Below the pieces are notes generated by a model. The model was not told where the DNA came from, searched no databases, and saw nothing but the letters and a program-made list of their open reading frames with translations. From Membranipora membranacea (lineage: Eukaryota; Bryozoa; Gymnolaemata; Cheilostomatida; Membraniporidae), in the NCBI GenBank assembly GCA_914767715.1, contig OU612070.1:29066025-29130024 (forward strand): a DNA stretch of 64,000 nt, in the 5' to 3' direction. Shown piece by piece: positions 44,001 through 64,000 of this stretch (within the stretch, counting starts at the first letter, position 1; each line of letters opens with the position of its first letter). The translations under genes were made by a program, and so were the position numbers.

Positions 44001-47000
44001 TTTTTAATCAATTTCAAGCTTTCATGGCATAAACCGGAAAAAAAAAATAGCACATCCTCATCTGGTTTTACTACATATACGTGGTAGAACACAGGACTGT
44101 GATTCAGCAGTTTTTTCTATTTTTTTCAAAACACTTTTTGGGAAAGTGATATGAGGCACTGGATTGGGTTTTGTATACACATGCGTTTATCATAAACACA
44201 AAACTGAAGTTTTTTTTGGACTATATTTACTTGTAACCTTGATCTTGATCATAGCGACTAGGATTGAACCTTAACGGTTCATCAATGAGCTTCTCGCTAC
44301 GATTAGCAGCAAACGAGTTAACCTGCAAAAAATTAACATAGAATCTCGTTTAACCCCAAGTTGATGAAAACAAACAAATAAGAATCTTAGAGTACAAAAT
44401 CCAAGTATCTACAAAATTCTCAGAGCGAAAAAAAGTCACCAAACATTAGACAGTTTTCTGAGCTCTGATTTACGCCTCAATTCAGAGTTTTCCTCTCTCC
44501 AGTTTGGTACTTTTAACCCATTCAGCACAGGAAAAGAGGGTAATCTTGAAAACCGCTTCGGTTAGGATAAAAATGATTTTTGATTCAGAATCTGCACCAT
44601 AGAAAACTGATATGGACATAGTTTGGGAAATATTTTTGGTATTAGGATAGTCAATTATATCAATTTCTGCCAGTTTTGCGGACAAATTTCATGGAATTTT
44701 TCAAGAACTTCGTCCATAAAATTAAGATTTATCAACATTCAAGCCTCCAACGATTTGGAAATCCTGCCTCGCAGGGTTTTCTATGGTGCAGATTCTGAAT
44801 CAAAAATAATTTTTTCCTAACATAAGCGGTTTTCAAGATTACCCTCTTTCAGCACGTTTCTCCTATGCGGCGTGGGTTAAAAGTACCAAACTGGAGAGAG
44901 GACAACTCCGAATTGAGGCAAAAATCAGAGCTCAGAAAACTGTCTATAATGCGAAAATCCTTGCTACTCTAACATTTTATTTTTTTGCTGGATTGTATCA
45001 GACAGTTCATTGATCTTACCGCCAACGATACGATTACATAGATCTTAATTGTTTTATGATTGCTTATGATCTTTATTTTAATTAAGGGTATAACAGAGTT
45101 ATCCAACAGTCAGGCACAATAGAGCAATGATCAGTAGACTGTTGACTCTGCACCAAGAGGTGCTAGCAAGGAGTGCTCCTTGGTGCTAAACAGCCGTGAT
45201 ACAAAAGGGAATAGTAGAGGGATGCTTCACTGCAACTTCATGACTTGTGATGCCACAAGATAGAATAGGACAGGGATAACAGGACACAGGGATAACAGGA
45301 CACAGGGTTGCTTCTCTGAGGGGCCACATGTAACAATGTTATCACTTACCATCACTGTAGTTCCTGCAGGGATAAAGTAGCCATCCAGTTCGGTGTTTCT
45401 CAATGCTTTCTTGAACATACCCGCCGGTGGATGTAAGCGCAGCGTCTCTTTTATGACCATTGACAGATAGTGCAGCTTTGTGATGTCATCGCATGTTATC
45501 TCGTTCTTCCTCCCAACAACCTCATCTACCTCAGACTTTAATCTTAAATAAAAAAGGGCTTATTGAATCAAAACGATACGCCAACCTAACCCAAGTGAAA
45601 ATGTGTCATGTTATAGTCGAGCAGTTACACATGATCGATCAAGTTATGTAAGATTTGGCTGAGACGGCTTACAATTGGCTCTTGCATTTAATGATTAGTA
45701 ACACGATAGGCATCTATCTATAAACTAGCCTTGATAGCACAGTTCCTGGTTACTGCCGCTATAGACGTTTGTCTGATCCCAACCCAGGGTGTAATATTTC
45801 ATGCAACTTATTCAATACGGGTTGCAGAATGGATGAAGCGTTTTATACACAAAAAATTAGCTTACATTTGAAATCTGTCCTTGTAGCCAATATTTATATC
45901 AGAACTTCTATATTATTTCACTGGCTTGATTGTATTAGAAAATACAGAACAGACCTGCTGAGAACATGAGGATGTCTGCTTAACTCCATGAATATATACT
46001 CCATTGTGTTAGCTGTCGTATCCATACCGACGGCTATCATATTAATAAACTCATCTACCATCGTCTCAAAGTTAGGGTAGATATTCTCGTCTGTCACTAA
46101 AAGGTAATAGAGTAGTGGTAGAGTGGATTCAGCTTGATAAAATACTAAGTTAAATCAGGAGATAGCAGTTTAAGTTGAATTACTGGTATTTTGCCTGATC
46201 CTGATCCAGTCTAAATGAAGAGCTGCCTCTCCTAGACCCTATTGGGAGGGATTTCATTCATTATAGTATGTAAGCTGCAACCTACTGCTTTACCAGGCAA
46301 TAAGCAGGCGTGTGAAGCTGCGCACAACTCTTATTTGAGGTCAACTTACAGTAAGATTTAACCATAGCAGTAAGCAAATCATTAGGTACATCATCATCTG
46401 TCTGGACGATAGTTATCCTCTCTTGTATTGTCTTGGCCGCCACATTACGCATTCTGACGACTACCTGACGGAATTCTTCTCTGAAGCTGCGATTGAGTGG
46501 ATTCCACTATAAACACGTAAAGATAAAATGAGGGTATCAATGGCAATATTATGGTATCAGGAATGAATGTAAAAATCACCTGGCACAACTTTGGGTGAAA
46601 CATTCACACAAAGCCGAACAACTCTGATGATCCCCTCTCTCTCTCTCTCTCTCTCCCTCTCTGAGATGATTTCTTTAACTCAAACAGAAGGTTTAATACA
46701 GCAGACAATTCACATATTATTGGTTAATGACTTTATCCAGCTCACCTCAAAGAATGGAATCTGAGACATCTGAAGCCCTTCAGTGACATGAGTGACAAAG
46801 GTATAAGCTATCTGATGAAACTCGTTTTCTAGTTCTGCTGATTTCATCGAGAACATTATCTATAAAATACAAATCTGATACTTACTCTGCATGATACATA
46901 GCCTATGTGATACTTACTCTATGTGATACTTACTCTCTCTGATACTTACTCTATGTGATACTTACTCTCTCTGATGCTTACTATATGTGATACTTACTCT

Positions 47001-49615
47001 CTCTGATACTTACAATATGTGATACTTACTTTCTCTGATACTTACTATGTGTGATACTTACTCTATGTGATACTTACTCTACGTGATACTTACTCTAAGT
47101 GATACTTACTCTATGCGATACTTACTCTATGCGATACTAACTCTATGCGATACTTACTCTACGAGATACTTACTCTACATGATACTTACTCTACGTGATA
47201 CTAACTCTATGCGATACTTACTCTACGTGATACTTACTCTACGTGATACTTACTCTACGTGATACTAACTCTACGTGATACTTACTCTATGTGATACTTA
47301 CTCTACGTGATACTTACTCTACTTGATACTTACTCTGTGTGATACTTACTCTATGTGATACTTACTCTCTCTGATACTTACTCTATGTGATACTTACTCT
47401 ACGTGATACTTACTCTATGTGATACTTTAGACTTTTTACAAGGCAACTTTTTTTGGCCGCATAGCAAGGCTAGTGATACTTACTCTAGGTATGTCTTATT
47501 CTTTGCAATATTTAATAATAATATAATATTATAAGTACTTACCTTCATAACACCATCTAATATAAGTACTTACCCTCATAACACCATCTAGATTGATTTT
47601 ACGAAATAGATCACCCAGTACTACACTCTCTCCAGATTCTATATATGGAACCAACTCCTCGATCAGTTCATCTCCAACAAAGTTCATCGACTCGATCTGA
47701 TTCTGCAGGTGAGATCTTTGGAACAGTGGATCCATAAACTTTCGTCTCGCAATCCATTTATCGTAATCATACAACAGAAATATGCAGTCACCGACCAATC
47801 TACAACATTAGAGCAAAGAGTTAGAGGTTAGAGTAATGATGAGGATATCTGTACATGACAGAGCGGGACACTTTTATTACCAGTATAGTCCGCCTGGGGT
47901 GTTACAGTTTGTGGCTCACATTAATTAAATCCAGTTGTTGACAACCTTGTTAAACCCAAAATAAAGATTCACTATTATCTGATGTAGCAGATAATCTCTG
48001 ATTCAATAGACTACAAAAACATTTCCTAAATGTTCCCACTATGATAAAAAAAAGGAAAAAGTTCTGCTTATATAATAATACCACACATACTACACAGGTT
48101 GCCACATATACCCTCTGTAGTTGGTGCAAGTCCAGTGAATGCGCGCCACAGTGGTTGAGGGTCTATCTCTCTTCAAGGTAATGAGATATTTTGCTTAAAG
48201 CATAATTCAAACTGCTCTCACATTCCATCAGTAGCATATTTTCCCGAGCATAGGATTGATTTTTGATTGAAATAATATTGTCAAATTGACCCTATAACCA
48301 GGGCGTGTTGAGTGTTTTCAACCATTCACATTTGCTAAGTAGCGGTGTCATTCTATCAGAATCAATCATTAGTATGTGAAAATATGCTACTGATGGAAAG
48401 TGAGAGCAGTTTGAATTATTTTTTTAGCCAAATATCTCATTACCTTGAAGAGAGCAAAAGCCTGAACCACTGGGGCACTCAAACACGTGACTTGCACCAA
48501 CTACAGTAGACCTATGGCTTACCACTTTGGAATTAATCGTCACATTTAATCAAGGGGCGTGACTCAAGAAAGGTACTTCACTTTTTAAATCAGCCAGGAG
48601 TTTTTACCTTTGTCCAAACAGAGTGTGAAAAGAGATGATGGTTGTGTGCTCAAACAATTTATCGGCATGCATTAAAGTTGTCTTCACAGCCGCTGGGCTC
48701 TGAACTATGACCAGCGGGCGATGTAACATAAATATGACATAAACATCTCCGTACTCTTTTCCCCTGTAAGAACAATTTACCATATTACTGGTCATTGTTA
48801 ATTATTACCAATACCTACTTTTGGCACTTAAATATCGATAGAAATTAATTTTGAAGCAGTTCAACCCAATTTTTCATATTTTGGAACAGTATGTTGTTTC
48901 AAACCAACGAGTTAGAGAGCCTTCTTGTTCAGACAGAGGTAAAACCATTATTAATCACAGCAGCAGTGCTTAGGTTAAACAGGCTAAGTCAGCGTAACCC
49001 TGATGGTGTCTGTGACTCACCATTCAACAAGAAGTTCATGGAAAAGTGGTTTGATCCTTCCTCCGTCCGCAGGAAGGACGAACGTATCTTTACCTTGACG
49101 AGTCAGAGAGACTATCTGTCCAGTATTTCCAAAGAAGAAACTACAATAAGATAGTAATTCAGACAATGTGATCACATAGCATTGAGTACTGAGTCATGTT
49201 AAGCCTTTTTTCTCTGCTATTTCAGAGCAAGATAAGATGGAAGTAACATTCATGTCGGCCTCTTTAGCTTACGGCGAAGTGACGGTGTGTATTCTTGCCT
49301 GAATCTCTTGTATGACAAATCACTCATAATTCCACTGGCTGTATTTTGGGGTAGGTATTAATCCATGTGCTCCAACTCCATTTGTTGCTAATTCACGGGT
49401 GTCTGTTTATCCGCCCGAGCTTGAGTTTGGGTACTAAGACTATATAGAGACTATAATATAGTATAATACTATACTAACCTTGATCTTGGAGGTCCGGGAA
49501 CATGACGATACTTTCTATGAACCAGTGTGATGACAACAACGTTCCAGATCAGTATTAGAAATACGACTATGAGGATTAAACTGATCAACCAAAGAGCAGC
49601 TAAGAGTGAATCCAT
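40889..49615 (-). CDS. Cytochrome P450, CYP46 (cholesterol 24-hydroxylase)-like, complete, 11 exons
   Basis: Heme monooxygenase anchored in the ER membrane. Exons from 5': 49479-49615, 49021-49140, 48608-48763, 47574-47799, 46746-46859, 46350-46506, 45955-46096, 45350-45542, 44231-44322, 41298-41370, 40889-41029; all join in phase, about 515 residues, a normal P450 length. Visible motifs: N-terminal membrane anchor, hinge HVPGPP, I-helix AVGMDTTAN, K-helix ETLRLHPP, FNPSRY (PERF-like), heme loop FSLGKRNCIG with the axial Cys, and C terminus CTITPRT. Human CYP46A1 has HIPGPP, ETSAN, ESLRLYPP, FNPDRF, FSLGHRSCIG and CTLRPRG at the same places. CYP46 hydroxylates cholesterol at C24; whether this enzyme keeps that substrate is inference. 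Several introns carry repeats. Confidence 0.92.
41298..41370 (-). CDS. P450 exon 10 (heme-binding loop), GC splice donor
   Basis: 73 nt, acceptor attattgtag. Encodes HIPLYSNIPFSLGKRNCIGQ then VLAQ; F-S-L-G-K-R-N-C-I-G is the P450 heme signature with the thiolate Cys. The exon ends CAG|gcaagt, a GC-AG intron, and joins exon 11 in phase 0. Confidence 0.93.
41737..41949 (-). repeat. Tandem tRNA-derived repeats (interrupted by the TIR element)
   Basis: Two units of about 103 bp here and a third at 43734-43850 beyond the insertion. On the - strand each contains GAGTTCGAATCCCGG or a variant, which is a tRNA T-arm with the RNA polymerase III B box. No full cloverleaf was found, so this is SINE-like or pseudo-tRNA sequence rather than a tRNA gene. 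Confidence 0.7.
41950..43733. mobile_element. Long-TIR DNA element, copy 2, with 8-bp target duplication
   Basis: Same element as at 20779-22622, with the same CATAGAGTTATTATATACTC ends and long inverted arms, in the same orientation and 1,784 bp long. Flanked by perfect 8-bp repeats GGTATAAA (41942-41949 and 43734-43741). It was inserted into a tandem array of tRNA-like repeats inside the intron between P450 exons 9 and 10. Confidence 0.93.
43734..43850 (-). repeat. Third unit of the tRNA-derived tandem repeat
   Basis: Begins with the target duplication ggtataaa and continues the phrase accaccaagtagtgaaagag found in the units at 41737-41949. A more diverged B-box-like sequence follows at about 43895-43940. 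Confidence 0.65.
44231..44322 (-). CDS. P450 exon 9 (PERF region)
   Basis: 92 nt, acceptor ttttttgcag, donor AA|gtaaat, phase 2. Encodes VNSFAANRSEKLIDEPLRFN then PSRYDQDQGY. F-N-P-S-R corresponds to F-N-P-D-R of CYP46A1. Confidence 0.88.
44448..44945. repeat. Foldback inverted repeat in P450 intron
   Basis: Left arm agacagttttctgagctctg and right arm cagagctcagaaaactgtct; arms of at least 120 bp with a non-repeated centre. A second internal inverted pair (gattcagaatctgcaccata near 44582 and its partner near 44783) lies inside. No coding frame. Intron between exons 8 and 9. Confidence 0.85.
45350..45542 (-). CDS. P450 exon 8 (K helix)
   Basis: 193 nt, acceptor tatttaag, donor ATG|gtaagt. 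Encodes LKSEVDEVVGRKNEITCDDI, then LSMVIKETLRLHPPAG with the invariant E-x-x-R pair, and DGYFIPAGTTVM. Confidence 0.95.
45955..46096 (-). CDS. P450 exon 7 (I helix)
   Basis: 142 nt, acceptor cttttag, donor AG|gtctgt. Contains FINMIAVGMDTTANTMEYIF, the oxygen-activation motif A/G-G-x-D/E-T-T, and MELSRHPHVLSR, nearly the CYP46 phrase MELSRQPEIVAR. Confidence 0.94.
46350..46506 (-). CDS. P450 exon 6
   Basis: 157 nt, acceptor gtttatag, donor T|gtaagt. Encodes WNPLNRSFREEFRQVVVRMR through DVPNDLLTAMVKSY: G-H helix region with the usual D-[IL]-L-T phrase. Confidence 0.9.
46746..46859 (-). CDS. P450 exon 5
   Basis: 114 nt, phase 0 at both ends, acceptor attttatag, donor GAG|gtgagc. Encodes IMFSMKSAELENEFHQIAYT and VTHVTEGLQMSQIPFFE, continuing DGVMR of exon 4 like MDILAKAAFGM in CYP46A1. 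Confidence 0.88.
46890..47425. repeat. 16-bp minisatellite (gtgatacttactctat), donor-like on the sense strand
   Basis: Roughly thirty copies in the intron between P450 exons 4 and 5. On the gene's sense (-) strand the unit reads atagagtaagtatcac and contains GTAAGT, the consensus 5' splice site. Confidence 0.93.
47541..47603 (-). repeat. 31-bp tandem duplication of a splice donor
   Basis: The block tagatggtgttatga followed by a gtaagtacttata donor occurs twice, 31 bp apart, at the 3' end of P450 exon 4. Using the outer copy adds 31 nt and shifts the frame. Confidence 0.9.
47574..47799 (-). CDS. P450 exon 4 (C-D helices)
   Basis: 226 nt, acceptor aatgttgtag. Encodes LVGDCIFLLYDYDKWIARRK (the C-helix W-x-x-x-R heme-propionate site is W-I-A-R-R) through FRKINLDGVMR. 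Donor AGG|gtaagt, phase 0. The last 31 bases with the donor are tandemly duplicated just downstream, giving a second possible donor after 47543. Confidence 0.92.
48115..48506. repeat. Foldback/MITE-like inverted repeat in P450 intron
   Basis: Ends ctgtagttggtgcaagtc and gacttgcaccaactacag; arms of roughly 150 bp with mismatches. No open frame. Lies in the intron between exons 3 and 4. Target duplication not resolved. Confidence 0.8.
48608..48763 (-). CDS. P450 exon 3
   Basis: 156 nt, acceptor ttcttacag, donor AG|gtaaaa. Encodes GKEYGDVYVIFMLHRPLVIV and KLFEHTTIISFHTLFGQR, matching [20 protein letters not shown] and the LFGQ region of human CYP46A1. Confidence 0.93.
49021..49140 (-). CDS. P450 exon 2
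   Basis: 120 nt, acceptor tattgtag, donor TG|gtgagt. Encodes SFFFGNTGQIVSLTRQGKDT through KPLFHELLVEW: the segment before the A helix. Its antisense shows an open frame that is only a shadow. Confidence 0.85.
49479..49615 (-). CDS. P450 exon 1: signal anchor and proline hinge
   Basis: ATG at 49615 downward. MDSLLAALWLISLILIVVFL begins the membrane anchor, then LVHRKYRHVPGPPRS. Donor AG|gttagt, phase 2. Confidence 0.9.
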
Positions 49616-50934: not shown

Positions 50935-51037
50935 TTATGGGATATCTGTTGCTGCTGTGTTAATACTGTCTAATACTAGAGACTCATGAACCGGATCTAC
51001 AAACGAGGGTACTAACTCAGCTTTGTGTAGCTCATAT
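50935..51037 (-). CDS. Module 3, exon E (last exon)
   Basis: Acceptor attattcag, stop TAA at 50935-50937. Encodes YELHKAELVPSFVDPVHESL and VLDSINTAATDIP. It joins exon D of module 3 in phase 2, exactly as exon E of module 1 does. Confidence 0.82.
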
Positions 51038-54000
51038 CTGAATAATAAAACAGTAAGTCTGTCAGTAAAATATGTCCTGTGTTGTGTCCGGTACTCAGGG
51101 GGCAGAGACAGGGGAGGGTTAGGGGGGAGAGACAGATGGGGAGATGTAGATGTTTGATATATGTGTAATGCTAGGTTTAGCGATTCCCTATCGTTAGACT
51201 TTTAGCTAGGGGATTTTTGACTTGGGATTTTACTGACGTAACTCAGACTATTGTCAATCAATGTATAACCTTTACTGATGAGCTTTACTGAGATTACTAC
51301 CGTGAAATCTAAAAAGATTAACACAAATGATGACTATATTATATAAAAGCATTACACAGGTTCTCAAAAAGTTACCTTTATAGTGTTACTTTACAGCTTT
51401 TAAAATAAAGTGTTATTTCCAAAACGTAAAATAATAAGGTGTCAAATTAAGCCTTTACACAATTCAAGGTATATATAATATAATTAATCCTTGAATGAGG
51501 AATGCATGTTGCAATAAAATGATAAGGTTAAAATTCATACCTTTTTCCTCTAAACATTGTGTATATTTCTTGATCTAACTGATCTGAGTTTATAATAAAG
51601 TGAACTGCCTTCTTTGACATGTAAAATTACACTGAAACAGGATAAGTTTTGCCAGATATACAGGGAACACACCAACACAAAGACCAGGGCGGGCCCAAAT
51701 CCCCTCAGACCAATCACGGACAGCCAACGCCCCATAAAGATGTTGGGAGGTGGCCAGAAGCTGCAACAAATACACTCCTCGACACAATACTGCACCCTGG
51801 ATCCCCTGTTTGAAGAGTAAATTACTCTATTGTTCCCCCGAAATTGGACTGAACCTAATTCTGCAGATGAGAGCAGTGACAACTAGTTGGAGTTGAAACG
51901 AGTCTCCAGGTTAAGCTGGTGAAACAAAAGAAGTTTTAATTTAACACATACTACACGAGTTTGTTACGTAATGAATTTTAGTTTGTTTTTGTTAAGCTGA
52001 TGAGTATCTTTACACTAGGCATGGGTGAACTCACTTTTACCACTCATGTCATGTAACGATATTCATTTTTATAGTTATAGTCAACAATATCACTGAATGA
52101 GAGTTTTCTGTGTGGTGTACTTACTGACAGGTAAGTTAGTGTCACTCTGTACGTGAGGCAGGGGGTGGGTAGAGGGGGAGTGACAGGGAAGTTTGTGACT
52201 CACTGTATACGCGGTAGGGGTTGAGTGGAGGGGAGTGACTGGGGAGGGGTGAGGTGGGATCCAGAGGGGGAGGATCTTCACTGTGTATTACTGGCAGATA
52301 TTATCGCCACGGTGTTTTACTCACAGTTTGAAGACGACTCTGACGATGCTGTTATCATGTTGATCTCCCTGCTCTCGTCTCCCGTGCTCAGCTACGAGGT
52401 GATGAAGAAGTCCTGCTTCGGATGGTGAGAACGGAACGTCACAGCTCATACAGAATACCATGGCTACACTCTGTAATATTATCAATAATACCATCTGTAG
52501 GTAACCCCAACCTACCTACAGTAATCCTGCTCCCTTCTCGCTCAGATGGTAAGTCAGGCCGAGTTGTTACTGAGAGGATAATGAATCTGATGGAGATGTT
52601 TTGCCAGAGTCATTAAAGAGAAGAACAAGCAATTATAGAATTACAGTACATGTCTGTACTATAGATGAATGTACAGACAGATAAAGATATATACTATAAA
52701 CGTATACTTTATACATATGTAGATGTATAACGTATCGTGTACAGTATATACAGGAATGTATCGCGTCCCGGTGTTTACTTACCGGCTGTGTTTGACTGTG
52801 TGGGATTTTATCTCTACGTTTATAAGACCAGTCGTTGTTATCTATCACAGAATGAGATGATACCCTCATGTGTCTCAGAGCCTCCTCGATAGTAGTGTAT
52901 GTCTCAGTACACTGAGGTGATACACATCTATAACTCTTAGAATTATAGCACTTTATAAGACTCTCTACTGTATAACTTCTCTCCTCCATAACTCGAATCA
53001 GACGGTAATAAGCCAGATGATTATCTACAAACACAAATATCACTTCTATCACTGCAGATAATATACCCCTGTTATCAGGTTCCTGATGAGTGGAATTTAG
53101 GATTTAAGGTTCTATGCTATATGTGGCCTGTCTTAACAGCCATTGATGGTGGGCGAGGGGGGGGGGGGAACAAAGCTTAACTACTGTTTTAGTAGACTTG
53201 TTTAGAGAGTTATTCCCTCTCAAAATCTGAGAGAATAAATCTCTCCTCATTCAGAGTTTTCCAGTCTGTGTTCACTTTTCCCGTGGAGTTTGGGGCGCAT
53301 GACCATAACCCTCCCTGGCATAACAAAAACGGGAACTCCTTATTGGAGAGTTGTCTCCCCGATTTTGAGAGGGGACAACTCTCTTCTTGAGTTGACAAGC
53401 GTTGTTTCTCCCAACAAACAAAGTAAAGGTAGTAATAGTATAAGATAACTCACCATCTTTAATATCCTGATGCCATAGTTTATAGTGAGCAGCCATACCG
53501 AGTAGTGAAGGGAACACTCTAATCTCCTTAGAGCAGAACCTCATCATACAAACTATGAGATATTGACAGTCTCTAATATGTAGAGGATTAGTATAACTAC
53601 AAGCCTCTAGTATCCTCGCTCTATCAGGTCTCTGTATAAGTATGTGTATATGAGAATATATGGGTGTATATGTACAGCTAAGTATGTATATAACATACAT
53701 GTATGTCTGTGTGTAACGTACATGTAAGTCTGGGGAGGAGGGGATGAGGGTACATACCTGTTGAGGTAGTTGTGGCTGAGTAGATGTGCTCTCAGCAGCA
53801 CCAGTAGGATACGTGGTGAGTATAAGATGAGGTATTCTATACCTGCTCACTGTTGTATGCTTGTTTGTTATAAGATGATTTAACGCTTCCTCTTCATGTA
53901 TAACTCTCTGGTGACAGGAGTCACAATATAATGCTGACTCGTAACTGGAGTTATCCTCACCGGTTAATACAGCTGCGCTCGCTGCATTATATAAAGTAAC

Positions 54001-57000
54001 ACAACATTGCAAATTATTAGTATTCATATCAATGAGTCAAAGTTCATTATCCTGATAGCCGGCTCATTTATATGGATGGGGGAGGGGGGGGGGGGGTTGT
54101 GTGCCCACCTTATTATTATATCCAATAATATAAGGCACTTTGGCCTCAGGTCTACGAACTTAGACAAACTAGATCATGAGGCTTGTCAATAGACTACCTT
54201 TACACAGTCAATAGACTACCTTTACACAGTCAATAGACTACCTTTACACAGTCAATAGAATACCTTTACACAGTCAATAGACCACCTTTACACAGTCAAT
54301 AGACTACCTTTACACAGTCAATAGACTACCTTTACACAGTCAATAGACTACCTTTACACAGTCAATAGAATACCTTTACACAGTCAATAGACCACCTTTA
54401 CACAGTCAATAGACTACCTTTACACAGTCAATAGACTACCTTTACACAGTCAATAGACCACCTTTACACAGTCAATAGACCACCTTTACACAGTCAATAG
54501 AATACCTTTACACAGTCAATAGACCACCTTTACACAGTCAATAGACTACATTTACACAGTCAATAGACTACCTTTACACAGTCAATAGACTACCTTTACA
54601 CAGTCAATAGACTACCTTTACACAGTCAATAGACTACCTTTACACAGTCAATAGACTACCTTTACACAGTCAATAGACTACCTTTACACAGTCAATAGAC
54701 TACCTTTACACAGTCAATAGACTACCTTTACACAGTCAATAGACTACCTTTACACAGTCAATAGACTACCTTTACACAGTCAATAGACTACCTTTACACA
54801 GTCAATAGACTACCTTTACACAGTCAATAATGTTTTTTCAATATTGTGATTGGCTCAAAATTTGTTTAGTGACATTCTGAAATGGCGGGTGGCGCAATGA
54901 CACTAAGGGACATGATGCAGTGTTTATGAATGCGATGTCGAATGTTTCCTGTACTTTATATATACGGATGTAATTCTATGTACAAGCTGAGAACTCACCA
55001 CTTAGAGAATCTACCTCCTTCTTCCCTTTGTTATTCTCCTCTCTCATCTTCCTGGGGAGTCGAGCCTGACGATTCCTCTTCGCAAAAATCATAGCAGGAG
55101 CCATTTCTCTCATCACATACCTGAGTACAGTGTAAACTGGTTAATTCAAACTTTATAATTCAAAATTCCTGTTAATTCATACAAGGAAATTTGGTCACTT
55201 CAGCCAGATTTCAATGCATTATAATATCACTTAATATAAACTCTGCTTAATTAGAACAAATTTTGGTGGTCCCCAGAGGTTTGAATTAAGTGAACTGCGC
55301 TGTATATGATACATTATCACATACCTTAGTATATTATTCATCATCATTCAGACGGATCACTTATATAATCATTACTTCATAACACAAATAGATGAGAGCC
55401 AGAGCAGACATGATGACTGTTACATAAAGCCTAAAGCTCACAGAACTACACAGAACTACACAGAACTACAGAGTGCTGCTATGTTTACTTTGATTGAGAT
55501 TTTATCAGAGGTTTCAGGGGTCGACAACCTTGAGTGATATCATGTAACTAAATAAATAGGAAATGTTAGACACAACAACAGTGACAAGTATGCTTACCTT
55601 TTATATACGACCTGTACAGGTGATAGTTTAGTTTTCGTTGCTTCATGCTTAACTCCGTGGTACTGAACAAGATGCTGGATAAGTTTTACCTCAGAATGAG
55701 TCTGAAGTTCGATATCACAACTCATACAATACGGTACTATCAGTACCTATAAAATACAATACAAGGTATAATTAGTATAAAATACAATACAATCGTTTGT
55801 GTGTGATATCATCATGACTGGTATAGTAGAAACTTGAACAGTAGTAATGAGAGAAATATGTACACCAACAGGAACACATTATGATATATATCTATCAAAA
55901 TTATCTGATGAGTAAAGATTCGCTGCTGCAGATATATTATTTTACATTATCACAGTACAGAGAGAGGTAAGTACAGAGAGAGGTAAGTACAGATAGATGT
56001 GTACACAGAGAGGTAAGTACACAGAGAGGTAAGTACACAGAGAGGTAAGTACAGAGAGGTAAGTACATAGAGATGAGTACATAGAGAGGTAAGTACATAT
56101 AGGTAAGTACACAGAGATGAGTACACAGAGAGGTAAGTACAAAGAGGTAAGTAAATAGAGGTAAGTACATAGAGATGAGTACACACTACACAGAGTATAA
56201 CTATATGGTGACTGACTGTATATTACTGACCTCGCCATTCTTTAGCTCACGGTTAGTTTTATTAAACTGTCCAGCACTCATGCCCATATGATCATGTCGT
56301 ATAAACTCCTCTGCTGATCTAAACTTTCTCTCACACATGAGACAAGGATAGAGGTTATCTGGTACACACTGCTTCAATGTATCTATACTTATATCTACTG
56401 ATATAACATCACCTTCGTACTCAAAATAAGCCATGTTACACGCTGAGTTCAGCCGTATACCTAGATAGAGAGAGTCAACTGTGGTAATATCATACAGTAT
56501 CACAACGATGCTGGAGTTAAACCAAGTATTCGTATTAGAACAAATAATAAACAGATAGGTAGGTAGTCATACACAGCCAAATAGTCACACATATACACCG
56601 TCCCATACAGGCATACGATCACAGATACCCAGTCAAGACAAGCCGTCACAAACACATCACCATGCCATCACACAGACCTAGTCAAATGCGAGACGTCACA
56701 AACACATCACCATGCAGTCACACACAAAGTCCCACAGTCATGCACCACACACACACACACAAACACACACCCTCATACACACAACGTCACACAATAGTGT
56801 GTGAAAAGAGATCAATCACTGGACATCATAAGTGACATAATTTCTAGCATCATCATCACTACATACAGTAAACTCCCATATAATACTAACATGATGACAC
56901 TTACTACTGGGTTGCTGAAAGTCAGCAGACTGGTGATGCTGACTGCAGTGTACGCTGAGGATGATAGGAGACTGACTGATATACAGCTCATCAGTACATG

Positions 57001-60000
57001 TAGAGGCCAGACATACACATACAATGTGACAGTCTCTTAAAGGCTTATCAAGTGTCCAGCAGTGCTCCCTCCATATATCACTGTGAGGTGACTTCATCTA
57101 AAAGGACACAGTATATATTAGGTACAGTGCAGACAGTAGCTGGTGAGATAAGAAGGATTTTGTGGCTCACAAGGAACATGAAACAGTAAACAGGTGACAC
57201 ACGGGACACGGGTCAAGGAGAAGAATCAGATTAAGTTATCATGTTGCGTAGTTACCTTACTAGTACAGACACCGTAACGTTTATGAGGTAGAGGTACACG
57301 ATAGCTGCTCACTGAGGTGTGACCAGTAGTTAGTAGATGATCCTCTGCCATATCAGCTGATACTTTCACATGACACTGATCACAGTAGAGATACCTAATG
57401 AGGCCTTTAGTTCTACTCCCAGTTAGAGATAGAGTGTCTGTTACATGTCTCCGGACCTTGAAGGGATAAGGCTTCACTTGTTGAGTAGATGTGTGCGGCA
57501 CTGCTGTCACTTGTTGTGTTTGAGGCACTTCTGTGACTTGCTGTGTTTGAGGCACTTCTGTGACTTGTTGTCTCTGTGGCACTGCTGTCACTTGCTCTGA
57601 TTTGATTTCTAGCCTGCCATCAAAGCCTGAGATATTCTGACTGATACCACCAGATGCCAAACTGACCACCTGAGAGATGACCAGAGCCTCAGGATCTGGT
57701 TTATGTGTCACACCTGGAGCTAGAGCAGGAGCTGGAGCTTGAGTTGGAGAGGGTGTGTACAGTGTAGGATTAGTAATCACTCCTGGAGGGCCAAGTACAG
57801 GAGGTCCTACATTCATCTCTCTAATCTCTCCAGTCCTAGCCTCAGGTCTTACAGCATGTTTTGATGATATCGGCTGCTCAGATTGTACAGCTCTAAAGGG
57901 AACTGAGGTTGGTTGGTTCACTGCACCTGGTCCTAAGTCTAATTCCATATGACCTTATTTTTTGGGGCTGACTGTACAGGCTGCTTGATAACGTCCCTCA
58001 ATCCTGTATATACACAGAAAACAAAGATAACAACACTATAATATCTGGTAATTATTCCCATATTGATAATCATGAAGACTAGGGATGAGGGAATAGACTA
58101 GGGTACCCTTTGTTTTTTCCGATATGAAAATCATAAGTAAAAAAACTAGAATAACTGGTACTAAAAGTTGTTCCTAAATTATTTTTATCTTGAGGACACA
58201 ATACCATGTACAGCACAATATACAACACAATGTACAACACAATGTACAACACAGTGTACAGCACAATATACAGCACAATGTACAACACAATGCACAGCAC
58301 AATGTACAGCACAATGTATGGCACAATGTACACCACAATGTACAGCACAATGTACAGCACAATGTACCACAGAATGTGCAATATGTACCATTCTTTGTTG
58401 AACACAAAGAACAAACCTATATGTACAACAAAAGGTACAACACTATGTTAACAGTATGAACTACAGAATGAACTCACCAAGCCCAGCACTGCCCTGTTGC
58501 TGAGTTGTTAGCTTCCTCATATTGAATTTAGGCCAGTGTGTCTCACCACCTCCACCGATCTTTTCTAGGTTAGCGTTCTTCCCTTTCTTATTCTTAGTTT
58601 TCTCTGTAGAACAATGCACTTAAATCAGACCCCAGAGTCTTGTCAGGACGAGCAGGAGGACGAGCAGGCGTGGTGACAGAGCGGGGGCAGGGGTGGGGGC
58701 AGGGGTGGTGACAGAGTGGTGACAGGGGTGGGGGCAGGGGTGGGGGCAGGGGTGGTGACAGGGGTGGGGGCAGGGGTGGTGTCAGGGGTGGGGGCAGGGG
58801 TGGAGGCAGAATGGTGACAGGGGTGGAGGCAGGGGTGGTGACAGAGTGGGGGCGGGGTGGTGACAAGGGGGGTGACAGAGTCGTGACAGGGGTGGGGGCA
58901 GGGGTGGAGACAGGGGTGGTGCAAGCTGGGCTCGCTGAGAGTCAGGTAAAGCTGATATGATTCTGAGCTCATTATTTCAAGGCAGTTTATCAAATTAAAG
59001 TAATTTTTGGCTTTGTTTAAGAAGTAAACTATAGAGCATAGGCCTTAATTACAGAGATTTATCCCCCTTCAGAGTACAGGTGCCGGGACACATGGTGCTT
59101 AAGCCTCTTCCTATACCAGGGGTGTCCAACCTATGGCTCATGAGCAACCTCGGCTCATTTTGGCTGGCTCATTTTAAGATTTGCAAAATTCACGCGCTTT
59201 TTGACGCGAATTTCATGCATTCAATTCATGCAGTACAATGTACATTAAATGTATGTATAGTGTATACAAGTTCATTGTACTGGGTGCCTGCATTGTAATA
59301 TGTGTGTAGAGTTGTCTTCTTGCAGACTTGCCAACCTAAATTTTCCAAAATGCTTACAAAAATTTGCAAAATGCTTAAAATGCTTACAAAACTCCAGGGC
59401 GTCTTATATGACCAGAAATTGCCTCAAAATTTTTTTCGCGCTACGCGCATAATCTCATACAATGACATGATTGCTTTGGAATTTTTTGCCAACACTTATG
59501 CATATATATCACTGGCTGTTTCCATGTTGTCTACATGCGACGTGGTCACCTCATTTGGTTTAATTGATTTTTGAAATGGCTCATGTGAGAGAAAAGGTTG
59601 GGCACCCCTGTCCTATACCCTTGCCTGTTGGAATTCTGGCTACTCTTTATCTCGAATAGGCAGAGGGAGATCTTTTTACAGCATGTGGAGTGTGTAAACA
59701 CAAAGTTGATAAAGGGTTGATTAAAATCAGATGTCATATCACACGCCACATCCCAAAGCATGGGCGGCGACATACCAGTTGCCTTAGGGGCTGGGCTGCA
59801 ATATCTGCACCCATTTGCTCTCAGTTTGCAGGCAGGTCGGAGCACACCTGGGAGCCAACCAAACCCCAGTAGTCGATAGACTACAGTGGGATTTGAACCC
59901 ACGACTTTCAACATTTGCATGCTGAAGGGACAGCACTCTAACCAAGCTACTCCAGTGGACACCCTACAATGGACATCCCGTATTTTTAATTCTGCTCCCC

Positions 60001-63000
60001 AATGACCTGGCTAGTGCGTGTGCCAGTACCAAATCAACAATGAGCGCAGGCACAATAGAACTTCGACCTCACAGATCAAGTCCACACCTTTCTCCTCGAG
60101 ACCACTCCGGACCCTTCAACTGAGGTAAACAGCAAATTTGCTGGCATAAAACAGACATTTACCCTTTGTGATATCCGACCTCCTAGTTGCAGAGAAGAGA
60201 TGAGATATAAATAAGTGAGAAGAAGCAGCAGCTGAGGTAGTTATAAGAGACTTACTTTGACAGGGTCGTGTCTGTGGAATGAGATCACTCAAATCAGTCT
60301 TCAATAACTTCTCTTCTGATTTCACCAACTCATACCTATAAGATATGTTAGCATCGAGTAAAGAAAGGGACGTTTCAGTCTGACTTCATCACAAAGACTC
60401 AAAACTACAACTTCTTATCAGGGCGACTTAAAGCTCGCTCGAGACTGTAAGTAAAAGGACCTGATTGTGCTAAAAGAATAAGCAATTAAAAATGCCATAC
60501 AAACTGCTTGGGTAGGTCAGCGCATGATATAAACTCCAGTCTAATCTGGGACTATAAATACTCACAGTTTCCACACCAGTTTGACAGGTTCGCTCACATT
60601 CTTATCTCTCTGTCCGTGATCATTCACCAGGTGTCTGACTACATCCTGAACTCGATTACACTCTAACACAACGTAACAGCTCTCACAGAACAACTGAGCC
60701 AAATTCTGCAGAATATCAGAGAGATACCAACATGACTAACATGGAGTATAACATAACACACCGCAGCAGTCTGAGCAGGGAGGCCGGGATATACCCTCAT
60801 CAGTCTGAGCAGGGAGGCCAGGATATACCCTCATCAGTCTGAGAAGGGAGGGTGAGATATACCCTCATCAGTATGAGAAGGGAGGGTGAGATATACCCTC
60901 AGCAGTCTGAGCAGGGAGGCCGGGATATACCCTCCCCAGTCTGTGTTAAATTGGTGGTATGCTGGACGATTCATTGAATCTTTAACTTCCTTGATTTTTT
61001 GTACACATTGATTTCATACATTGCAATTCAAAAAGCAGTACTTGAGTCTAAGCTCAAATCCGGTATATGCTTAATGAAGGAGAAAAAATAAGCCATACGA
61101 GATCACACACTATAATTATTACAGAAATCATTTATTCAAAAAATTACCTGCTGTAGTGTAAGGGTTGTGGTTTAACAGATGGGATTCATGATTATTAGGT
61201 TATTTACCTTCCCAAAGCGTAGTGGATTAGAGTTTATCTGTAAGTGATCGTCCGGTTGGTGTATATTTGTTCCCTCCATGTAACACCCAGTTTTAGTGAC
61301 ATGCTGGCGAACAGCCTTAGGGCTCGAGAACAGCATGTGACAGTTGAGGCAAGGGAACAGAGATCTCTTAAAGTAACTGCTGAGATAGGCTCTGCTCATC
61401 GTGAATCGACATATATCTCTCACATACTTAATGTAGGCATACTCGTGTGTACCTAAATCAGATATAATCATTCAATAGTCCTCAAAACTTGAGATCTCAT
61501 AAGGTGTAATTAAACAAATCTGTCTTACAACCACTACATTAGAGACTCAGACTTTAGACACTTTGCTCATGGTCTCTCAAATATCCTTATCTTTTGTCAT
61601 ATCTCTAATATTGTAATTTTTCTCTATTTCTCTTATTTAACTGACACAGTTAGTAGCATATCGCTAACATGTAAATTAATACCTAGAAGAGTGTTAAAAA
61701 ACACATCGCTCAAAATATGGCATTTCAACCTTTTTTTATTTATCTACCCTTTGCTGGCAAAACTCATTATCACAAAATTTCGATGGAAATATGCTACATT
61801 TTTAATTATGAATAATTACTTTCACAAATAATTCTCAACTAATTTCTCTTGTCCAACGGAATGACTGATCATCAAACGATTGTAATAATAAATAAAACTT
61901 CACATAGAGAAATTATTTAAAGCTATTTTTGATAATTTTCTAGTCCCAAATTTGTGATAGGGCGTGTGGAAAAAATTCTCACCTATAACATGATAATTAT
62001 AATGATTGAGTATGTTTACCTTTGACGCGCCGCTCATTTTTGTGAGTAGCACAGTGCTTAGCCAATAGTAAGGGTGATAAGCAGACTTTTACAGAAAGGT
62101 TACACATCAAACAGGCGACCATCATATCCGCGTCCCGAACGTGTAAGGGTATGGTACATCTCCCTATCCCCTCATTCAACAACTGAGCGTTACAGGGCTT
62201 CTACAAGGAACAGAACAATATCAGATTAGAGAATAAAATCACCACCTAGCTTATCAGGTTAGGTGCATGATTTTATCTAGCCGTAAGCTTGAAACTGAAT
62301 TTTTTATTACATAAATAATTGTTAGATTTTTCATGTTAAATTCAGTGTTGCACCTCCTTGATATACCCTAATATTATAACCAAATAAGGTAAATGTTGGA
62401 AATATTCAACATGATGCCGCCTGGACATGTTATATGAAGAACACCCAGCAGCGATCAATCATGTAACACTTTCATCTAATTAATACTTCTAGGGATCCTC
62501 ATGGAATAAAAATGTGAAACGGAAAGTTTTTTTTAACGTATTGTATGAGATCCTTTAGCAGATGGGTATCATTCACATAAACAAATAACATATTCATTTA
62601 TCTTTTCTGTGACCATTCAATTTAACCAGTAAAGCCAAAAAGTCAGTTAACAAACGCACCTTATGTATGTCATAATCCGGAGCAGAAGTATCAGGTACAA
62701 AGTATAAACTGGAGCTGGCGTGCTTAGATTGGGCGAGATGTTTCCTAGCGTCGAGCTCGGTGAGCCTGATATGACATAAGTCACAATACAGAGCAAAGTA
62801 AGAATCCCATCTGGTGTTACTTGATGAGATGACCTGTTTGGTCAATCGCCCGATTATAGACCCTCTGTCAGGCTCATAGTCAGTCCCATCAGGTGACTCT
62901 ACATTAAATGTAACAAACAACTTACTTATTTATAACATTATTTATTACGCCTGGTGTTTAGAACATGACTAATGCATCAAAGAATAAGAATGCTAAATGA

Positions 63001-64000
63001 ATCGAAATAAGAAGAAAGCTTTTTGTCCTAATGAGTGCTGTGGACATGAGTTAAGTATCATCATGATAGAAAGCTACTCACAAAATTTAGTAGCTTTGAT
63101 GAAATACTGCTGATTATATTATAGTCATAGCGATACTCACCCTTAATTGTGTTAGCGAGTTTGGAGTTGTGTTTTGACTTGTGTTTAGAGACTTTAACAT
63201 CAGATGCAGATTGATGTGCTGTCTTGGCACCTGCCTGTATTTTTTTATTTGAAGATTTGAAATCTGTAGTCATAGTTTTAGCCTTTATGTCTTTACCATC
63301 CCTTTGTGACTGTGAGACAACTCTAAGGTTTGGCAGTGAATCATCTTCATGGCTAGCTTTGTTTATTTTAATGGTCTTCTTATCCTCATTATAACATGGA
63401 ATCTCTGGTCGGCCAGCAAACATACCGGCAGGGAAAGTCACACTACTCTTTGATTGTTTGACAGTAACAATATCCACCTGCTGTGTAAACCTTATGATGC
63501 TGGCTGACTGACCAGCATCAGACGATGCTTCCCTTTTGACCTCCTGTTTTATGATTTTGTTGATTTGTTTTAGTTGGGGATTTACGGGAATGTTGAGATC
63601 GTGTTTCTTCTTGGTATTATCGGGTAAAGTGGATGTTACACCAAAGGTCACTGGATGAGGTTTCACTTGCTCTTGATTTGTGTTTAGTTGATAGCTGTCT
63701 GAAACTGGTATCATTCTTGTTTTTGGGGAAATACTTCTACTCTTTGCTCTATGGCGTCTCTTCAGAGAAGTAAAGTCACTTCTGACAGGAGATGACGGAC
63801 TATTTAAAGTATGAGATAACAAAGCTGCTGATTGCCTCATGTTTTGATCTTCCCCGACTGGAGAACGAGATCGGTCATCAGAGTGATGTCTTCTGTCGTA
63901 CTTGAGCGATGATCTTTGTTTAGCTGAAGGTGACCCACGATTCTCAGACCTTGCCATATATTTCGGAGAATGTGCATCGGAAAGTATCCGCCTCGAATTC
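50935..64000 (-). CDS. Zinc-finger protein with three tandem five-exon modules (5' end outside window)
   Basis: About 1,375 residues are visible. After an RS-rich, disordered N-terminal exon come three copies of a module A-B-C-D-E. Module 1: 62660-62898, 62020-62200, 61208-61452, 60566-60705, 60256-60335. Linker: 58478-58603. Module 2: 57256-57953, 56905-57097, 56231-56460, 55598-55746, 54999-55120. Module 3: 53758-53981, 53454-53631, 52783-53024, 52325-52470, 50935-51037. Exons A to D end in phases 0, 1, 0 and 2 in all three modules, and E in phase 1 in modules 1 and 2. A is a matrin/U1-type finger (C-x2-C-x11/12-H-x5-H), D is C-x2-C-x13/14-H-x4-H, B and C are degenerate. Fingers of this kind bind RNA, DNA or proteins; no family name is assigned. 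Probably nuclear. Confidence 0.85.
51038..52324 (-). other. Last intron of the zinc-finger gene
   Basis: About 1.3 kb with no supported exon. A 110-codon - strand frame (51550-51882) has no splice fit or protein likeness. Confidence 0.55.
52325..52470 (-). CDS. Module 3, exon D
   Basis: 146 nt, acceptor atattacag, donor CT|gtgagt. Contains VFCMSCDVPFSPSEAGLLHH then LVAEHG and VVFKL. The antisense frame at 52225-52428 also looks protein-like but is a shadow: only this strand fits the module, the phases and the neighbours. Confidence 0.85.
52783..53024 (-). CDS. Module 3, exon C
   Basis: 242 nt, acceptor gtttgtag, donor CCG|gtaagt. Contains YRCVSPQCTETYTTIEEALR then HMRVSSH: C-x4-C-x12-H-x5-H. 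Entry phase 1, exit 0. Confidence 0.87.
53454..53631 (-). CDS. Module 3, exon B
   Basis: 178 nt, acceptor ttatacag, donor G|gtgagt. Encodes CSYTNPLHIRDCQYLIVCMM through SLLGMAAHYKLWH. Entry phase 0, exit 1. Confidence 0.85.
53758..53981 (-). CDS. Module 3, exon A
   Basis: 224 nt, acceptor ataatgcag, donor CAG|gtatgt. Finger: ALYCDSCHQRVIHEEEALNH then LITNKH and SRYRIP, followed by a Thr/Gln/Pro end. Entry phase 1, exit 0. Confidence 0.87.
54190..54830. repeat. 22-bp minisatellite (cagtcaatagactaccttta)
   Basis: Nearly thirty copies of a 22-bp unit in the intron between modules 2 and 3. Variants agaat and agacc occur in an ordered pattern in the first half; the second half is uniform. Confidence 0.95.
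54999..55120 (-). CDS. Module 2, exon E
   Basis: 122 nt, acceptor gtactcag, donor G|gtgagt. Encodes YVMREMAPAMIFAKRNRQAR and LPRKMREENNKGKKE: strongly basic, nuclear-localisation-like. Entry phase 2, exit 1. Confidence 0.8.
55598..55746 (-). CDS. Module 2, exon D
   Basis: 149 nt, acceptor ttttatag, donor AG|gtaagc. Contains YCMSCDIELQTHSEVKLIQH then LVQYHG: C-x2-C-x14-H-x4-H. Entry phase 0, exit 2. Confidence 0.85.
55958..56185. repeat. Minisatellite of agaggtaagtacaca units
   Basis: About fifteen units of 13-17 bp in the intron between exons C and D of module 2. On the + strand, antisense to the gene, each unit contains AG|GTAAGT. Confidence 0.92.
56231..56460 (-). CDS. Module 2, exon C
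   Basis: 230 nt, acceptor ctatctag, donor GAG|gtcagt. Contains LYPCLMCERKFRSAEEFIRH then DHMGMS. Entry phase 1, exit 0. Confidence 0.85.
56905..57097 (-). CDS. Module 2, exon B (degenerate)
   Basis: 193 nt, acceptor tccttttag, donor A|gtaagt. Encodes CWTLDKPLRDCHIVCVC, LASTC and SPIILSVHCSQHH. Matches exons B of modules 1 and 3 in length and phase, but the first Cys pair is distorted. Several overlapping shadow frames exist here. Confidence 0.78.
57256..57953 (-). CDS. Module 2, exon A, with Pro-rich extension and coding repeat
   Basis: Donor AAG|gtaact, phase 0. A long Pro/Ala/Val-rich extension (SPTQAPAPALAPGVTHKPDP) and four copies of a QQVTEVPQT-type repeat (about 57480-57600) precede the finger YLYCDQCHVKVSADMAEDHL then LTTGH and SSYRVP. 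The acceptor taag at 57954-57955 is in phase with the linker exon but weak; the other candidate, atatacag near 58009, leads to a stop. Confidence 0.8.
58203..58380. repeat. 15-bp minisatellite (acaatgtacaacaca)
   Basis: About twelve variable copies in the intron before exon A of module 2. All six frames are partly open because of the repeat; none is a gene. Confidence 0.9.
58478..58603 (-). CDS. Linker exon between modules 1 and 2
   Basis: 126 nt, acceptor gttctacag, donor G|gtgagt, phase 1 in and out. Encodes KTKNKKGKNANLEKIGGGGE and THWPKFNMRKLTTQQQGSAG. Basic, Gly-rich; no counterpart in the other module junctions. Confidence 0.75.
58660..58925. repeat. G-rich minisatellite (ggggcaggggtggtgacag)
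   Basis: Variable units of 12-20 bp built on ggggcaggggtg and gtgacag, in the intron upstream of the linker exon. Proline-rich open frames on the - strand here are repeat artefacts. G-runs could form quadruplexes on the non-template side (inference). Confidence 0.88.
59117..59610. mobile_element. hAT-type MITE with 8-bp target duplication
   Basis: 494 bp. Starts CAGGGGTGTCCAACCT and ends AGGTTGGGCACCCCTG, the terminal pattern of Charlie-like hAT elements (established family knowledge). Flanked by perfect 8-bp repeats TCCTATAC (59109-59116 and 59611-59618). No transposase frame. Sits in the intron between exon E of module 1 and the linker exon. Confidence 0.92.
59880..59965 (-). repeat. tRNA-like sequence (SINE head or pseudo-tRNA)
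   Basis: On - it has an A-box-like TAGCTTGGTTAGAGTG and a perfect T-arm GTGGGTTCAAATCCCAC, spaced as in a tRNA. The acceptor stem does not pair, so it is not scored as a functional tRNA. Confidence 0.6.
60256..60335 (-). CDS. Module 1, exon E
   Basis: 80 nt, acceptor cttatag, donor A|gtaagt. Encodes YELVKSEEKLLKTDLSDLIP. The start YELVK matches YELHK of the final exon. Entry phase 2, exit 1. Confidence 0.8.
60566..60705 (-). CDS. Module 1, exon D
   Basis: 140 nt, acceptor tattctgcag, donor CT|gtgagt. Contains LFCESCYVVLECN and VQDVVRHLVNDHGQRDKN, then KLVWKL. Too short for a long open frame; found by homology with exon D of module 3. Entry phase 0, exit 2. Confidence 0.82.
60758..60940. repeat. 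34-bp minisatellite (cagtctgagcagggaggccg)
   Basis: Five units ending gatataccctcat, in the intron between exons C and D of module 1. Confidence 0.9.
61208..61452 (-). CDS. Module 1, exon C
   Basis: 245 nt, acceptor tgatttag, donor AAG|gtaaat. Contains LFPCLNCHMLFSSPKAVRQH then VTKTGC (C2HC). Tyr/Arg-rich helix-like segment precedes it. Entry phase 1, exit 0. Confidence 0.85.
62020..62200 (-). CDS. Module 1, exon B
   Basis: 181 nt, acceptor ccttgtag, donor G|gtaaac. Encodes CTIPLHVRDADMMVACLMC and a finger ending LLLAKHCATH. The PLHVRD phrase recurs as PLHIRD in module 3 and PLRD in module 2. Entry phase 0, exit 1. Confidence 0.85.
62660..62898 (-). CDS. Module 1, exon A (matrin-type finger)
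   Basis: 239 nt, acceptor aatgtag, donor AAG|gtgcgt. Finger: LYCDLCHIRLTELDARKHLA then QSKH; C-x2-C-x11-H-x5-H followed by SSSLYFVP. Entry phase 1, exit 0. Confidence 0.85.
63141..64000 (-). CDS. Zinc-finger gene: RS-rich exon running off the window
   Basis: Open to the window edge without a stop, so the Met at 63957 need not be the start. Encodes SRRILSDAHSPKYMARSENR, Arg/Ser/His-rich sequence, IKQEVKRE (SUMO-consensus-like) and a Lys-rich end. Donor G|gtgagt, phase 1. Confidence 0.8.

Follow-up and report, generated by a model that had tools for sequence, protein, structure and literature searches.

Three successive series of exons with a similar layout lie on the minus strand of a 64,000-nucleotide stretch of chromosome 6 of the bryozoan Membranipora membranacea (contig OU612070.1, C6:29,066,025-29,130,024; hereafter the window). 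We questioned whether a multi-exon zinc-finger block was duplicated there as a whole, whether its copies belong to one gene, and what sort of protein they would encode. At the window locus, an old five-exon block is present three times in tandem; each copy encodes about 290 residues with four spaced, unlike C2H2/C2HC fingers. At least three genes on this bryozoan chromosome contain the block and make up a family. Positions are those of the window unless prefixed, and genome searches covered 339,339,785 bases in 18 contigs.

Three tandem copies of a five-exon block

Exons were placed by eye at GT-AG sites on the minus strand. All 15 exons that the initial annotation had arranged in three A-B-C-D-E series, running from 62,898 down to 50,935, could be placed again. 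In module 1, predicted exon A (62,660-62,898; phase 1 in, 0 out), with a finger of the form C-x2-C-x11-H-x5-H, is followed by exons B (62,020-62,200; phase 0 in, 1 out), C (61,208-61,452; a C2HC finger, phase 1 in, 0 out), D (60,566-60,705; phase 0 in, 2 out) and E (60,256-60,335; phase 2 in, 1 out). A Lys-rich linker exon of 126 bases, exon F (58,478-58,603; phase 1 in, 1 out), stands between modules 1 and 2. Module 2 exon A lies in a probable exon at 57,256-58,003, assigned from acceptor score and frame analysis, which also holds the end of the exon F frame and an overlapping ATG. Splice-site reading places the other module 2 exons at 56,905-57,097 (B), 56,231-56,460 (C), 55,598-55,746 (D) and 54,999-55,120 (E; phase 1 out). 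Module 3 is made up of exons A (53,758-53,981; phase 1 in, 0 out), B (53,454-53,631), C (52,783-53,024), D (52,325-52,470) and E (50,935-51,037), B to D being read from splice sites and E ending in TAA.

As first described, exons A to D end in phases 0, 1, 0 and 2 in all three modules, and modules 1 and 2 both close with an exon E in phase 1. The block has phase 1 at both ends in this gene, which explains how copying could occur with no break of frame, and modules 2 and 3 are joined through matching phases with no frame problem. The similarity in exon size that had been reported holds in general, the exception being module 2 exon A, which is about three times longer than its counterparts. The phrases said to recur among the modules do so with variations, several being restricted to one or two of them: PLHxRD and LYELxK are confined to modules 1 and 3, with KPLRD in place of the former in module 2, and LYPCLMC is found in module 2 only, with LFPCLNC in module 1 and YRCVSPQC in module 3.

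Identity among the three window modules is 25-27%. When profiles built from two modules were used to find the third, modules 1, 2 and 3 (M1, M2 and M3) scored 84.3, 75.7 and 105.3 bits. The controls were 1000 shuffles per module with every Cys and His fixed (982, 990 and 993 of which were reported by the program), and the best of these reached 12.6, 12.0 and 15.6 bits. Because the real scores lie far above those of the shuffles, the repeat is not explained by shared zinc ligands alone.

A 22-bp minisatellite (54,185-54,829; 29 copies, 97% match) sits in the intron that separates exon E of module 2 from exon A of module 3, and further short arrays occur in the introns adjoining it.

Paralogous genes on chromosome 6

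The genome was searched with three queries: module 3, module X1 and modules Y1+Y2, the latter names referring to the loci described here. In a six-frame search, module 3 had weak but collinear matches (E 0.06 to 1) at C6:15.49 Mb, where reading by splice sites yields a gene for a protein of 940 residues (gene 2), its long first exon followed by modules X1 and X2, each with exons A to E. X1 matched one more locus, C6:1.89 Mb, at a best E of 2.4e-7, with a gene for 941 residues (gene 3) that has a long first exon and modules Y1 and Y2. All 16 matches listed for Y1+Y2 are confined to the three known loci. The three genes are all on the minus strand of chromosome 6, 13-14 Mb apart, and together contain seven modules and 28 fingers. 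Exons A to D have phases 0, 1, 0 and 2 in each of the seven modules, and in every gene exon A comes after a long first exon that ends in phase 1; the phase of exon E differs, being 1 in the window gene and 2 where the two modules of gene 2 or gene 3 meet. The initial annotation had proposed that a whole block was duplicated inside one gene. Duplication of the block is borne out, since the exon order and the A-D phases recur in two more genes, whereas "inside one gene" is plausible only for modules 1 and 2, whose frames do not run together in the assembly (see below).

Using a profile made from the window modules only, X1 scored 160.4 bits and Y1 111.4 bits (best of 500 Cys/His-fixed shuffles each, 19.2 and 14.5), and X2 scored 17.5 bits (shuffles up to 13.3). 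Leave-one-out profiles across the seven modules scored between 49.3 (Y2) and 183.9 bits (X1), and none of the 998-1000 shuffles reported in each case reached the real score. In a test of exon class, the right class was the best match for 14 of 20 paralogue exons (9 of 10 in X1/Y1 and 5 of 10 in X2/Y2). A tree of modules split X2 and Y2 from the rest (100/100) and gave no branching order for M1, M2, M3, X1 and Y1, the program warning of long branches meeting. Pairwise identity is 23-30% within this first type and 17-21% from one type to the other; X2 and Y2 are 31% identical. On this tree, the window gene would consist of the first module type three times over, without the second.

Weak matches to X1 on C5 and C7 (E 2.8 and 6.2) were rejected as members of the family: they fall in open reading frames (ORFs) that were read, by eye and from their motifs, as a Ty3/gypsy-like polyprotein. 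A weak match to module 3 was also seen on C8 (E 2.6).

Four unlike fingers and their relatives

Of the 18 invariant columns in the seven-way alignment, 14 are expected metal ligands (C,C,H,H in finger A; C,C,H in B; C,C,H in C; C,C,H,H in D), and the remaining four are one Asp, one His and one Ser of finger A and one Leu of finger D. Finger A has the form C-x2-C-x(11-13)-H-x5-H in all seven modules, and in finger D a C-x2-C pair is followed by a spacer that varies from 13 to 25 residues. Fingers B and C had been called degenerate, a description that suits the long spacer of B (its Cys pair is 2 or 4 residues apart) but not its retention of two Cys and two His, nor finger C, the most conventional of the four. 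Lax C2H2/C2HC patterns fit all 28 exons A-D, including 12 of 12 in the window gene; unusual among them are finger C of module 1, which ends in Cys, and finger C of module 2, which has H-x-H. The four fingers differ from each other, as stated earlier. They are encoded one per exon and stand tens of residues apart; this spacing and their mutual unlikeness make finger-by-finger reading of DNA unlikely. In DNA-reading C2H2 arrays, neighbouring fingers are linked by short conserved linkers; the modules have the C2H2/C2HC ligands and lack such linkers. Tandem C2H2 transcription factors repeat a single finger of about 28 residues inside one exon. The window gene shares with them its C2H2 ligands, a multi-finger protein and internal duplication, but what it duplicates is a five-exon block of four unlike fingers.

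No match in Pfam or NCBIfam spans the whole module, and none of the best 60 of 165 matches in a PDB sequence search covers it, in keeping with the earlier statement that no described protein is known to have this architecture. NCBIfam gave two weak matches, taken as unrelated. The Pfam family zf-C2H2_2 (PF12756), which covers ZNF622/REI1-type proteins, matched finger C, B-C or C-D weakly in six of the seven modules. Y1 scored 26.9 bits over finger C, exactly at the cut-off, and is the sole module to reach a Pfam cut-off; five modules fell under it and M2 was not listed. This family differs from the module in that it matches neither finger A nor the whole unit, and ZNF622 appeared in the PDB search only at E 0.02.

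Finger C of X1 scored 20.3 bits against zf-C2H2_jaz (PF12171; cut-off 22.6), which is annotated as binding double-stranded RNA. Exon A searched alone matched zf-U1 (PF06220) at E 0.064, jaz at E 0.1 and zf-met (PF12874) at E 3.7, each in one of ten sequences. Matrin/U1-type fingers follow the rule C-x2-C, about 12 residues, H-x5-H, and the naming of finger A as matrin/U1-like is therefore apt by spacing and not by profile. Module and matrin/U1/jaz-type fingers also differ in arrangement, finger A here heading four unlike fingers in a fixed five-exon unit.

Profile searching, which the initial annotation had proposed, had a mixed outcome. In a protein database whose coverage of animal proteomes is not established, so that the negatives are weak, module 3 alone yielded no relative from 669 candidates, nor did an alignment of the module regions of the three genes from 5,914. 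A profile of all seven modules, in contrast, recovered three ENA proteins of 181-190 residues (E 1.3e-12 to 4.8e-12; 1,472 candidates), and no named domain emerged that spans the module. The three proteins align to gene 2 exon A, two with 68% identity over 17% of the query and the third with 50% over 31%, sharing SDIVEV, LFCDLCHxKL and YKHYSASxYNVPVS; the similarity stops at the end of exon A. These matches indicate that at least the finger A exon is retained in another, probably related species. One of the three proteins (P0002) was compared with the genome_contigs and viral_contigs sets and gave 66 and 3 pattern matches, none of them confirmed. A few literature searches of partial coverage found no paper on this zinc-finger family.

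The shared SDIVEV is an acidic stretch ahead of finger A (C6:15,493,129-15,493,433, minus strand; P0001-P0003), and resembles a SUMO-interaction motif.

The join of modules 1 and 2 and a possible role

We assessed the join of modules 1 and 2 with an acceptor matrix derived from 35 accepted sites of the three genes (leave-one-out minimum 2.8, median 8.1). The strong acceptor ahead of module 2, at 58,003, scored 10.2, above 31 of the 35 accepted sites. Joined to it in phase, the frame of exon F runs into a stop after about 20 codons (last base 57,941). An ATG at 57,948 opens the module 2 frame and overlaps this stop, and the module 2 frame has a stop of its own just ahead of the ATG. Acceptors that would join the two frames directly scored 3.8 at best, and one at 57,953 scored -9.9.

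Codon use was coding-like in the module 2 frame from 57,948 to 57,783 (0.31 per codon versus -0.42 and -0.40). Exon F itself scored 0.288 in frame, exon F and the four control exons being part of the training set. The 17 codons following 58,003 scored 0.29 in the exon F frame, a value that 2.5% of stop-free intron windows attain; windows free of stops make up 39% of intron windows of that length. In sliding windows, the module 2 frame stayed near zero for starts from 57,956 to 57,929, was clearly positive from 57,920 and fell to about zero or below again from 57,821, and the exon F frame was positive only in the first two windows of the stretch ahead of the ATG. Both frames are ambiguous from about 57,983 to 57,920, and the position of the frame change is thus not sharply defined by codon use. 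On one reading, the exon at 58,003-57,256 holds a frame change that may reflect an indel, either in the assembly or between alleles, splicing that was not seen, or a pair of overlapping ORFs. It is plausible from these data that the three modules belong to one polypeptide. Programmed -1 frameshifting was discounted: as judged by eye, a stop in the new frame shortly precedes the ATG, and a shift at the upstream A-run would terminate at once.

Upstream of module 1 exon A, the 3' part of a long first coding exon occupies 63,141-64,000 on the minus strand, its open frame being joined across the window edge. The exon lies mostly beyond the window, with its ATG at C6:29133080 (L009:3056); it is a single open exon of 1,305 residues that ends in phase 1. 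It is rich in arginine/serine (RS) repeats, with 68 RS or SR dipeptides and 46 windows of 20 residues in which S+R is at least 70% (best 80%). This is the composition of SR-related proteins as set out in PMC9479744, namely S+R of at least 70% in a 20-residue window with S and R each at least 20%.

Upstream of the gene, open frames at L009 7,312-8,055 (plus strand) resemble, by eye, a retroelement endonuclease fragment.

Our tentatively favoured explanation, held with somewhat less than even confidence, is that the family encodes nuclear RNA or chromatin scaffolds with repeated binding modules. The proteins would be nuclear scaffolds in which each module, organised by zinc into a unit, may bind structured RNA or a partner protein instead of reading DNA finger by finger, and repetition of the module would add avidity. 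The spacing of finger A and the below-threshold jaz score of X1 finger C lean toward RNA or ribonucleoprotein (RNP) binding, and the RS arm of the window gene leans toward splicing condensates. Exon 1 and the three modules would form one protein of about 2,400 residues, whose RS-rich N-terminus may bring it to condensates of splicing or transcription. An indel in the assembly or between alleles, or splicing not seen here, would then account for the frame change near 57,948. A bolder version, which we regard as a doubtful conjecture, would have the A-E block be a new domain of about 290 residues that combines its four unlike fingers in one RNA- or RNP-binding unit, arose in or near bryozoans, spread by block duplication inside genes and along one chromosome, and was once fused to an RS-rich, splicing-factor-like arm.

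Several observations weigh against the scaffold reading. The frame from module 1 to module 2 is not continuous in the assembly. Pfam found nothing in exon 1 at E 0.01, and hence no RNA recognition motif; genes 2 and 3 have no RS domain under the same composition test, so that an RNA-processing role is not inferable family-wide. The jaz and U1 profile scores are under their cut-offs, and the PDB matches are to ordinary DNA-binding C2H2 fingers. Y2 scored only 6.6 bits against the window-only profile, a value equalled by 2 of 498 Cys/His-fixed shuffles, with 8.7 bits for the best full shuffle. Single-exon structural models were also weak for exons A and B, with mean predicted local distance difference test (pLDDT) values of 59.9 and 62.2 for the two. 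The exon A model has strands at 33-38, 43-45 and 63-67 and a helix at 47-57, with block pLDDT of 67-84 there and below 50 elsewhere, and Foldseek with this weak model gave no match at 0.001 (best E 0.72).

Two neighbouring genes or ORFs, one for an RS-rich protein with module 1 only that ends at 57,941 and the other starting from the ATG at 57,948 with modules 2 and 3, are a substantial possibility, though likewise somewhat short of an even chance. The second protein would share the layout of the paralogues, an N-terminal part and two modules, as genes 2 and 3 carry two each. The only strong acceptor found leads exon F in phase to a stop, the best in-phase alternative that joins the frames is low among accepted sites, and the module 2 frame is coding-like just after its ATG. 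However, stop and start would lie within the same probable exon, the phase 1-1 of exon F matches, and a two-ORF message with many introns after its first stop would probably be subject to nonsense-mediated decay. The stretch 58,003-57,256 contains no copy of the four poly(A)-like hexamers sought, which carries little weight because none occurs within 1 kb past the final stop either. The same frame break could instead be the first lesion of a decaying copy, an incipient pseudogene. This is very improbable: the other exons are open with usable splice sites, every finger of the window gene fits the lax patterns, and the control exons have in-frame codon scores, albeit as members of the training set.

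As to binding, sequence-specific transcription factors whose fingers have drifted would account for the leading structures among the best 60 PDB matches, which are PRDM9 and ZBTB17 over finger C and HIC2 over C-D, with weaker ones such as GLI and CTCF over B-C, and for Y1, one module of seven, standing just at the zf-C2H2_2 cut-off. The earlier statement that these are not ordinary DNA-binding arrays is accordingly fair for the module and needs qualifying for finger C and in places B-C or C-D, which resemble ordinary C2H2 fingers. We consider such factors unlikely, given one finger per exon at distances of tens of residues, no short linkers, and four fingers that are mutually unlike. The low pairwise identity among first-type modules might still suggest chance similarity in over-interpreted open frames, an explanation that we count as refuted by profile scores far above the shuffles and by two more loci with the same A-D phases. 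The repeat and the gene family are real and of the zinc-finger protein kind; they are not a categorically new system.

Other features of the window surround this locus. Downstream of the gene, at 45,227-47,807 on the minus strand, there is a cytochrome P450 exon at 45.2-45.6 kb (Pfam p450, E 2.3e-20) and a second frame at 47.5 kb with no Pfam match at E 0.001. A 924-residue Ser/Arg/Lys-rich open frame at 23,588-26,362 (minus strand) contains a motif like CRHxxxKSCRRC five times, at intervals of 91-145 residues, and more long Ser/Arg-rich open frames lie on the same strand at 27,028-28,986, 30,810-32,096 and 19,389-20,468, all of these with no Pfam match at E 0.001. On the plus strand, 5,362-7,178 encodes EGF repeats followed, by eye, by a transmembrane-like stretch and a long tail, perhaps from a Notch/Delta/Crumbs-like gene.

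The family provides a zinc-finger module that was matched to no described domain and is repeated as a whole exon block, in a phylum with few annotated genomes. It is also a clear case of phase-conserving multi-exon duplication, with seven copies retained at 17-31% identity. If its RS-rich member is confirmed, that gene may represent a lineage-specific addition to bryozoan RNA processing.

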